Positions 3,216 through 30,643 of a DNA stretch of 64,000 nt are shown one piece after another. The number at the start of each line of letters is the position of its first letter. Within the stretch, counting starts at the first letter, position 1. The position numbers were made by a program, and so were the translations under genes. Origin of the DNA: an uncultured Aliiroseovarius sp. GTDB taxonomy: Bacteria; Pseudomonadota; Alphaproteobacteria; Rhodobacterales; Rhodobacteraceae. The stretch spans positions 62,001 to 126,000 of the forward strand of contig NZ_CANMFT010000005.1 of NCBI RefSeq assembly GCF_947497285.1, written 5' to 3'. The notes below the pieces were generated by a model that searched no databases, was not told where the DNA came from, and worked only from the letters and a program-made list of their open reading frames with translations.

Positions 3216-5342
3216 TCAGCGTTCAGGGCGCGGCTTGGGGCGGGTGTCTTCGTCTTCAGGTGTCAGGGAGGCTGGCCCGGCAAAAGGAGGGCCGCTTGCC
3301 GCGTCGCCTTCGGCGGTGTCGTCTTCCTGTGGTGTTTCAGAGGCATCGGTGTCAGTCGCTGCCGGATCGTCGCTACCGCCGGTCGGGTCAGCCTGCGTGG
3401 CCGGATCCCCCTCGCCTGTTTCGTCCGCAGCGCCCTCAGCTTCAGGATCTTGGGTGTCGTCGGCCTCTAGCAATTTAAACTCGATGCGACGGTTGGCTTC
3501 GCGACCGTCTTCGGTGCCGTTGTCGGCAATGGGATCGTCTTCGCCATAGCCTTTCGCCGTCAAGTTCGTCGTCAGAATGCGCCGGGTCAGAAGCGCGTTC
3601 AGGACGGCCTGTGCCCGGTTCTGCGACAGGGCCTGGTTCATTTCTTCACGACCCTGACTGTCGGTATAGCCTGCAATCTCCATACGCACGTCAGCGCAAT
3701 CTTTCATAATCTCAGCGATCTTGTCGATTGTGCCCGCTGCCGAGGTTTCGATATTCGCAGATCCGGGGGCAAAGGTGATCTTGGCCTCGTTCATGACCGC
3801 GTTGATGTTGGCCGCACATTGCTGAGGGCTGGGCAAGTCGTGACGCGGGTCAAGTTCTTCCTTGTAGACGACATTGACCCGGAAGTTCTCGGACGCCCCC
3901 AGCTTTCCGCTCAGCACACGTGACACCATCGCACTGGCGTCCGGGTCACCGGTCATGCCACGCAGGTCGACGACTTCTGGTTGCACCACTGCGGCGCCGC
4001 TGGACAGCAGTGACAAAGCCTCAAGCGCGGCCAGCACGCGGGTCGGCCAGTCGGCAGGCAAATCCGGGTCCAAACGGGTCGCGGGATACACGTTGGTCGA
4101 TCCGAATCTTGCGCGTGCATAGTTTTCCGCGGCACTTCGCAGGGTTTCATCGGTCAGACGTCCACGCAGCTGCACCGTGCCTTCCGGGCTTTTCGTGGCC
4201 ACGAATTCCGGTGGTCCCTGTCCGTCGCCACTGCCGTCGATCTTTACGGGTTCGGGCAACACGGAGTGCAGCGAATAGAGGTCGGGCAGATCGTTTTCAA
4301 GTTCTCCTACGATCCGGTCGAACGTCGCCTGTGGGGTCGTGTCGGGGGCGACCAGCGTCACATCGGCATCCGAAAAAGTGATCGAGCCGCCTTCAAGCGC
4401 CTTGATCGCGCGAATGCCCAGTTCGACGGCCTCTGGCCAATCTGGCGAGGGAACACCCAAGCCGATGGTGCAGTTCGCACTGCCCTCTAGCCCGGCGTCG
4501 GTCGCCGCCGATACAATCTTTGCGCGCCCCACTGTGTCATGCGCCGAACACGCATCGAAACGCGCGCCTTCTTCGTCGATCAGAAAACGCAGCGTGAAGG
4601 GGGTGATGACCGGGCGCGGGGCCGCGATGTCGATGGCCAGCAGCGCCGATCTGGGTGCCTCGCGCTTAAGCTCCCGTGCCCAGGTCGCCTTTTGTTTTTC
4701 ACTGTCGGCCAACGCCGTAATGGCCACCTTTCCGGCGTCCATCGAAATCTTTGACCGCGGCAGCTTTTCAAGCGCGAACATTGCAAATTCCAGCGCCTCT
4801 GCCCAATTGGCGGGCACCGGGTAGTCCGCGACTTCTAGAAGGTCGGTGACATGGCTGCCGCGTGCGATCTGCTGGACATCTTCGTTCAGGGCTTCGCGGT
4901 CGGTTTGTGCCGGAATGAGACCGATCATCGAAATGCCCGCGTCGTTTCGCAAAATCTCGATGGAAAAGCGGGGCGGCTCGATCGCTTCCGTCGCCGGGAT
5001 CGAGATATTGTCGATCACACGCGCCGCATCGACCACCGAACCTGCAGCAGACAAGGCGCGAAACCTTGCTGCTTCGCTGGGGGCCGTGCCGGACAGCACC
5101 ACCTGCAATCCATCGGATTGCACGCTTGCCCATTCATATCCGTGCAGGATCAGTTGTCCTTCCACCGCGTCTTGCGAGCTCGTTTCAATAGCTGTCACCG
5201 ACAGCGTTGCCGCCAGCAGGGACACCAGGGCTGCAATGGCGAACGAGGCAGGAACCAGAATGATGTGCGAAAGGCGCATGCGTAAGGGCATCCGTTTGCT
5301 TGTTGACTTGTGCTTCTTAGGGCGTGTCTTTGCCCGGTGCAA
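3216..5342 (-). CDS. OmpA-family protein with BON-like repeats and acidic C-terminal tail
   Basis: OmpA-C motif ITFAPGSANIETSAAGTIDKIAEIMKDCADVRMEIAGYTDSQGREEMNQALSQNRAQAVLNAL; N-terminal TM helix; long Asp/Glu/Thr-rich tail. Confidence 0.85.
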   Translation of the reverse strand: MHRAKTRPKKHKSTSKRMPLRMRLSHIILVPASFAIAALVSLLAATLSVTAIETSSQDAVEGQLILHGYEWASVQSDGLQVVLSGTAPSEAARFRALSAAGSVVDAARVIDNISIPATEAIEPPRFSIEILRNDAGISMIGLIPAQTDREALNEDVQQIARGSHVTDLLEVADYPVPANWAEALEFAMFALEKLPRSKISMDAGKVAITALADSEKQKATWARELKREAPRSALLAIDIAAPRPVITPFTLRFLIDEEGARFDACSAHDTVGRAKIVSAATDAGLEGSANCTIGLGVPSPDWPEAVELGIRAIKALEGGSITFSDADVTLVAPDTTPQATFDRIVGELENDLPDLYSLHSVLPEPVKIDGSGDGQGPPEFVATKSPEGTVQLRGRLTDETLRSAAENYARARFGSTNVYPATRLDPDLPADWPTRVLAALEALSLLSSGAAVVQPEVVDLRGMTGDPDASAMVSRVLSGKLGASENFRVNVVYKEELDPRHDLPSPQQCAANINAVMNEAKITFAPGSANIETSAAGTIDKIAEIMKDCADVRMEIAGYTDSQGREEMNQALSQNRAQAVLNALLTRRILTTNLTAKGYGEDDPIADNGTEDGREANRRIEFKLLEADDTQDPEAEGAADETGEGDPATQADPTGGSDDPAATDTDASETPQEDDTAEGDAASGPPFAGPASLTPEDEDTRPKPRPER

Positions 5343-28938: not shown

Positions 28939-29954
28939 TGGCTGACACCCCAAAGAAGTCCACGGGCCCGGTCCTGATCGAATTGGGTGATGCGCCACGG
29001 GCCACGCCCGCCGACGCCCCGCCGGTGCCCGAGTTGGCCGCGGTCGATGCCACGGGGACCGCGATGCAAGGCGCGATCAGTTTTGCGGGCCGTAAACGGT
29101 CGCGTCTGGCGCGTTGGTTCTGGTCGCTTCTCATGGCGATCATGGGGTTTGTGCTGTCGGTCGCCGCCTACGACTTCGTGACGGGTCTGATCGAACGCCA
29201 GCCTCTGCTGGGATATGCAGCGCTGGGTCTGGTCGCGGCGTTCATTCTGGTTCTGCTGGTCATTGCGCTGAAGGAATGGGTGGCCTTCGCCCGGTTGCGG
29301 CGCGTCGACAGCCTGCACCGCGCGTCTGAAGCTGCGATTGCCCATGGCGACCTGACCGAGGCGCGGCGCGTGGTGGACCGCCTGAAGCAGCTTTACCACG
29401 GGCGCGACGATCTGCGCTGGGGGCTGGAACGCATGACCGAGCGCGAAGGCGATGCTTTCGACGCCGACACACTGTTTGCTTTGGCTGAGGCCGAGTTGAT
29501 GGCCCCGCTGGACGCCGCCGCCTTGAAAGAGGTCGAAGCCGCCGCCCGTCAGGTCGCGACCGTCACCGCCATCGTGCCGATCGCACTGGCCGATGTAGCA
29601 ACAGCCCTGACGGCCAATATCCGTATGATCCGCCGCGTGGCCGAGATCTATGGCGGTCGCTCTGGTGCGCTGGGCAGTTGGCGGCTGACCCGCGCTGTGA
29701 TGGCGCATCTTGTCGCCACCGGGGCCGTCGCGGTGGGGGATGACATGATCGGGTCGCTGGCTGGCGGTGGGATGCTGTCCAAGCTCAGCCGCCGGTTTGG
29801 CGAAGGCGTGGTGAATGGCGCGCTGACCGCCCGCGTGGGTGTGGCCGCGCTTGAGGTCTGTCGCCCGCTGCCCTTCGGCCCCAAGAAACGCCCAAGCGTC
29901 ACCGGAATTGTGAAACGTGCCCTGACAGGGCTGTTCGGGACGAAGTCAGAATAG
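28935..29954 (+). CDS. YcjF/TIGR01620-like membrane protein
   Basis: Two TM helices, then TALTANIRMIRRVAEIYGGRSGALGSWRLTRAVMAHLVATGAVAVGDDM; linked to the YcjX homologue. Confidence 0.82.
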   Translation: MMADTPKKSTGPVLIELGDAPRATPADAPPVPELAAVDATGTAMQGAISFAGRKRSRLARWFWSLLMAIMGFVLSVAAYDFVTGLIERQPLLGYAALGLVAAFILVLLVIALKEWVAFARLRRVDSLHRASEAAIAHGDLTEARRVVDRLKQLYHGRDDLRWGLERMTEREGDAFDADTLFALAEAELMAPLDAAALKEVEAAARQVATVTAIVPIALADVATALTANIRMIRRVAEIYGGRSGALGSWRLTRAVMAHLVATGAVAVGDDMIGSLAGGGMLSKLSRRFGEGVVNGALTARVGVAALEVCRPLPFGPKKRPSVTGIVKRALTGLFGTKSE

Positions 29955-30371
29955 TTTGGGCGGGGCAGAGGCAGGCCTGCGCGTATCCTCCATCTGGAAC
30001 TTGAAGGCCCGTCCGATGCGCTGCGCCAAGGCGATCCACGTATTGGCCAGATCTTCGGGTAGTTCCTGACGCAATACCTCCTCGAACATCTCAAGCCACG
30101 GGGCGAAATGCTCCAGCCGGATGTCGGGCGACCCAACATGAACGCGCATCGGGTTCCCGTCATACCCTTTCTCACGCAAGATCGCGTTGCGCCAAAAGCT
30201 TTCAATCTTGTCGATATGGGCGGCCCACTCGGCGTCGGTTTCGCCTATATGGGCGTTGAACACCGGGCCAAGCTCGGGGTGGCGTCGAATGCGCGTATAA
30301 AACACCTGCATGACCCGCGCGATCTGGTCGCCGGACACGGGAAAGCGGGCAAGGGGGTTGAGGTCAGTCAT
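29946..30371 (-). CDS. Group III truncated haemoglobin
   Basis: FYTRIRRHPELGPVFNAHIGE...WAAHIDKIESFWRNAILREKGYDGNPMRVHVG...HFAPWLEMFEEVL. Confidence 0.85.
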   Translation of the reverse strand: MTDLNPLARFPVSGDQIARVMQVFYTRIRRHPELGPVFNAHIGETDAEWAAHIDKIESFWRNAILREKGYDGNPMRVHVGSPDIRLEHFAPWLEMFEEVLRQELPEDLANTWIALAQRIGRAFKFQMEDTRRPASAPPKLF

Positions 30372-30382
30372 GGTGGCTCCTG

Positions 30383-30409
30383 CTAATCTGATGCTTTTAG
30401 TCAGATTAG
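30383..30409 (-). promoter_or_regulatory. Perfect inverted-repeat operator candidate upstream of the truncated haemoglobin gene
   Basis: CTAATCTGA (30383-30391) N9 TCAGATTAG (30401-30409), containing TGA-N9-TCA; about 12 bp from the start codon. Confidence 0.65.
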
Positions 30410-30643
30410 TGTGCGGGCGAAAGAGACAATTGCGCGCACCACGTCATGATCTTTGCCGGTCTGCCAAGTCTTTACGCCGCCGACCCACGCGCCTATAACG
30501 CGCCCATGATGCACGCCAAAGCCATCATTATTCGAATTATCAGCCCGGCGCTCTGACCCACTGAGCCGCCGGGACAAGGCGTATGGACGACCCGCGCCGA
30601 CCCATCCGATAGATTGCGAAATATCCTGAAAAGGACCGGACAC

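Follow-up and report, generated by a model that had tools for sequence, protein, structure and literature searches.

The Iron-Rhodo-box of the Rhodobacteraceae reportedly goes back to Rodionov 2006. This operator of the regulator IscR has a palindromic core of the GACTA...AGTC type that lies over or near the -35 and -10 elements, it is read by an IscR with a single cysteine, and its targets include hemP, irpA, a di-haem oxidoreductase and suf genes (PMC4618611; PMC6956336). Known IscR-box operons in R. sphaeroides include hemP, irpA (RSP_1548) and RSP_1545; in this species, IscR gel-shifts GACTATTTCTGTCGG at the internal isc-suf promoter P3 (PMC6956336) and also binds the hemP promoter (PMC4618611). 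Two related systems are relevant to a site upstream of a globin gene. In rhizobia, RirA, which like IscR is an Rrf2-family Fe-S protein, reads an IRO box with the sequence TGA-N9-TCA (PMC6386902), and NsrR, an Rrf2 Fe-S repressor, regulates flavohaemoglobin genes elsewhere with the consensus gATGyAT-N5-ATrCATc (PMC1274295).

We compared these systems with a perfect inverted repeat at positions 30383-30409 of the window (the whole 64-kb stretch of DNA analysed). The repeat reads CTAATCTGA TGCTTTTAG TCAGATTAG, or CTAATCTGA-CTAAAAGCA-TCAGATTAG on the minus strand, with 9-bp arms, a 9-bp spacer and no mismatches. The initial annotation had placed this palindrome, as an operator, before a group III truncated haemoglobin gene; we confirmed the repeat at exactly these coordinates, 11 bp from the globin ATG (30371), with a Shine-Dalgarno-like AGGAG (30377..30381, minus strand) in between, and the gene assignment was also right. 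The globin ORF (29946..30371, minus strand, 141 aa) aligned to the Campylobacter group III globin 2ig3 without gaps over 113 residues (phmmer E 6.9e-24), and searches of the same ORF against Pfam and NCBIfam gave no matches at 0.001.

The nearest public records to the window come from Aliiroseovarius, which are marine roseobacters, with globins that are 100% identical in S1339 and 85% identical in A. sediminis. A globin match was found in 21 of the 21 genomes of the genus group, and genome G137 had a distant homologue only. Residues Y25, H52, H78 and W92 were invariant in an alignment of 18 relatives. We take these to be B10, E7, F8 and G8, with the haem-pocket roles assigned in Ctb of Campylobacter jejuni (PDB 2ig3), in which the Tyr, His, His and Trp positions are kept. 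Ctb belongs to the NO-responsive NssR regulon, whereas the window globin instead has an IscR-type box, as described below. Under iron stress, the globin probably performs O2/NO or peroxide chemistry.

Taken alone, the palindrome and its TGA-N9-TCA core are not significant by count. Perfect inverted repeats with arms of at least 9 bp and spacers of 0-15 bp occurred 4 times in the window, compared to 3-12 times in shuffled sequence, and TGA-N9-TCA was present 30 times where 12.7 occurrences were expected. This core had been used to point to the regulator, for which it is too common on its own. The whole 27-bp pattern had a single copy in the 3.37-Mb genome when up to 3 mismatches were allowed. 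Because the palindrome and core are not significant by themselves, the case for an operator rests on position and conservation.

Conservation of the motif upstream of orthologous globins was indeed found: a yGACTA-N3-nAGTCr box, or a variant with GAGTA/ACTC, lies just before the ribosome site in every Aliiroseovarius globin promoter inspected (CCGACTATTTCAGTCGG, CCCGACTAATTTAGTCAGG, CCTGACTAATTAGGTCAGG and GTCGAGTATTTTACTCGG, among others). The core 19-mer of the window, TCTGACTAAAAGCATCAGA (30387..30405, minus strand), and its A. sediminis counterpart, TCTGACTAAACATATCGGA, fill the same alignment columns as the boxes of relatives, and the pattern GA.TA......TC.G is invariant across 14 species (the window and 13 other Aliiroseovarius), which are related and whose sites are not independent. 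These globin boxes resemble those in the hemP and sufB promoters of the same genomes. Outside the genus, the box was present in the globin promoters of Ruegeria pomeroyi, Ruegeria XHP0148 and Pelagimonas varians; it was absent from most globin promoters of Leisingera and Paracoccus and from those of many other Rhodobacteraceae, and the link between box and globin is thus patchy. The window box itself has diverged, with 7 of 10 bases matched in the core (GACTA-N3-TAGTC type) and GCATCA in the right half where TAGTCr would be expected.

To score the globin boxes independently, we built a matrix from the hemP and sufB promoter boxes of the genus alone, leaving the globin boxes out. The best site for this matrix in the 64-kb window was 30387-30405 (score 9.5, with the runner-up at 6.7), and the matrix detected the globin box in 14 of 14 named Aliiroseovarius promoters. 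Per-site p values for these promoters were at most 7.3e-6 (412,696 background positions), the window site having the value of 7.3e-6. When upstream regions were shuffled, the globin-box score was equalled by 0-1 of 2000 shuffles in eleven species and by 9-19 of 2000 in three, including the window lineage (9/2000 for the window upstream region). At 9.5 compared to 10-25 in relatives, the window box is one of the lowest-scoring that we collected. By matrix rank and alignment, we propose the 19-mer as an Iron-Rhodo-box, a predicted IscR site.

A scan of 21 genomes with the sequence model that corresponds to this matrix returned hemP, sufB, imelysin, di-haem oxidoreductase and the globin promoter of genome G121 among its best matches, and the first four of these correspond to Iron-Rhodo-box/IscR operons of R. 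sphaeroides; the window box did not appear among the matches of its own genome at E values up to 5. A strict genome search with GACTANNNTAGTC yielded mostly non-promoter matches, fewer than the reversed control, and only the sufB site was convincing. A first alignment of 18 globin sequences contained no stretch conserved enough for scanning. In the globin locus of an uncultured Pelagimonas (L074), the matrix found a very strong IscR-type box, CCTGACTATTTTAGTCATT (3398-3416, score 23.2). This box lies outside the globin promoter, about 0.9 kb away from the start of the gene, and is near a minus-strand ORF resembling a membrane protein.

The genome encodes one Rrf2 protein above the Pfam cut-off, and three proteins of the Fur family. 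The sole Rrf2 protein has one cysteine, in LTPCPAVP, like R. sphaeroides IscR, and its nearest PDB chain is 7zpn (E 7e-74). Its best score is against IscR; this score falls short of the equivalog cut-off, and the rhodobacterial form is divergent. By these sequence features, this protein is the single-cysteine rhodobacterial IscR. The three-cysteine RirA was not found in the genome, the sole Rrf2 protein above cut-off being IscR-like, and a search with the Rrf2 profile did not find NsrR. The globin box of A. marinus, GACTATTTCAGTCGG, is one base off GACTATTTCTGTCGG, the sequence bound by IscR in R. sphaeroides.

The alignment of relatives also suggests a promoter beneath the box. A conserved TTGGC occurs about 17 bp upstream of TATTTC, which itself falls within the box, and TTGGC-N17-TATTTC may represent a -35/-10 pair with its -10 inside the box. 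The corresponding candidates in the window, both on the minus strand, are TAAAAG (30394..30399) as the -10, aligned with the TATTTC of relatives and inside the box, and TTTCGC (30417..30422) as the -35, 17 bp from TAAAAG and near the conserved TTGGC. A generic sigma-70 scan predicted no promoter at the window site. The box is probably positioned over the -10 element.

We consider it likely that the repeat represents the rhodobacterial IscR operator, the Iron-Rhodo-box, in a form specific to this lineage, and that IscR would repress the globin gene through it. Binding, repression and the inducing signal are here extrapolated from R. sphaeroides. A holo-IscR dimer would bind the TGACTA...TCA core, which is predicted to overlap the -10, and the bound protein would block globin transcription under iron-replete conditions. 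Once iron or Fe-S clusters run short, or the cluster is oxidised, IscR would release the DNA, and the globin would then be made alongside hemP, imelysin (irpA), the di-haem oxidoreductase and the suf genes. By this analogy, the globin is probably switched on by a shortage of iron or iron-sulphur clusters. It is plausible that the globin is a further, newly predicted target of a regulator already known and not part of a new kind of system. The locus differs from the described operators in two respects: its target, a truncated haemoglobin, is outside the published table of R. sphaeroides IscR targets, which lists no globin, and its box has the drifted right half together with longer outer arms. 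In the literature that we searched, no study connected the globins of this family in roseobacters with iron or with IscR.

The outer arms, AATC/GATT, are confined to the window lineage (G000 and S1339) and A. sediminis and occur in no IscR box that we have seen. They may extend the operator, serve a different factor or have arisen by chance, and selection on them cannot be shown because only two distinct sequences carry them. There is a modest chance that the globin is under the Fe-S sensor IscR with an operator since rebuilt into a longer 27-bp palindrome, to which IscR binds in another way than to the standard Iron-Rhodo-box or which a second regulator uses; if so, production of a haem protein would be coupled to cluster status. 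A small chance goes to another dimeric transcription factor that reads the full 27-bp repeat and, in the window lineage, has either taken over the ancestral IscR site or come to share it. The perfect 9-bp arms reach beyond the box of relatives, which spans 13-19 bp; A. sediminis has retained the arms through an outer C:G to T:A pair change; and the inner right half-site has moved away from the IscR consensus, all as such a factor would predict. However, the lack of a second 27-bp copy in the genome argues against it, as do the restriction of the arms to so few sequences and the ORFs listed for 26-35 kb, among which we saw, by eye, no regulator gene adjoining the globin.

The repeat could also act post-transcriptionally, as a hairpin in the 5' leader RNA that hides or presents the ribosome-binding site. 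The window RNA folds at -10.6 kcal/mol (z -2.8), and the A. sediminis stem retains 9 pairs via U-A and G-U changes (z -2.2); in contrast, shuffled sequences fold just as well as the A. marinus segment (z 0.1), and we judge an RNA hairpin quite unlikely for this reason. The same DNA motif moreover occurs at hemP and sufB, and the -10 aligned within the box would leave much of the stem untranscribed. An Rfam search returned nothing convincing. It is very unlikely that the palindrome is functionless and arose by chance: repeats of this length are expected in 64 kb, as the shuffles indicate, but its position, the genus-wide conservation of its core and its agreement with a motif trained on other promoters all speak against this. 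Control by RirA or NsrR in response to iron or NO is highly improbable, for although the window core fits the rhizobial IRO box letter for letter and NsrR likewise sits ahead of globin genes, as an Rrf2 Fe-S repressor is predicted to do here, that core recurs throughout the window, the NsrR consensus misfits the site by eye, and both proteins were rejected as regulators, the one Rrf2 protein above cut-off in this assembly, rated 99.97% complete, being IscR-like.

Of the original proposal that an Rrf2 protein controls the globin by iron or NO, the Rrf2 protein and the link to iron are retained, given the repressor position and its conservation in the genus, and RirA and NsrR are set aside. With IscR as the likely regulator, the signal would probably be iron or Fe-S status and not NO, and control by NO is conceivable only indirectly, if the cluster of IscR is damaged. 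Little is understood about group III truncated haemoglobins, and an IscR-type box offers a clue to what this globin does in roseobacters: its conservation would link the globin to iron and Fe-S stress, with no obvious link to NO, and would point to iron limitation or deletion of iscR as the condition in which to seek that function.

We made several further observations around the globin gene. Over the 3.4-kb globin-ileS locus, the window genome and G134 (loci L002 and L032) are 99.6% identical, compared to 94.8% for hemP and 82.8% for iscR, which suggests that the globin-ileS region recently recombined. The A. sediminis-like genome G128 carries a second, distant truncated haemoglobin (locus L164, 28-486) and, about 1 kb away, a gene for an NsrR-like Rrf2 protein with three cysteines (about 1450-1881), and this pair is possibly an NO-controlled counterpart.

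Upstream of ileS, the window region 30471-30590 (plus strand) contains an Ile-rich leader ORF (30506-30556, MMHAKAIIIRIISPAL). This ORF is probably leaderless because its start lies 6 bp after a -10-like TATAAC. The leader peptide is kept in many Rhodobacteraceae as AIIIRIIxPAL, and a conserved CCCGGCGCTC/GAGCCGCCGGG hairpin is found 3' of the ORF. A leader CDS before ileS is known from Caulobacter (PMC4117421), and the Ile-rich leader and hairpin likely constitute an ileS attenuator.
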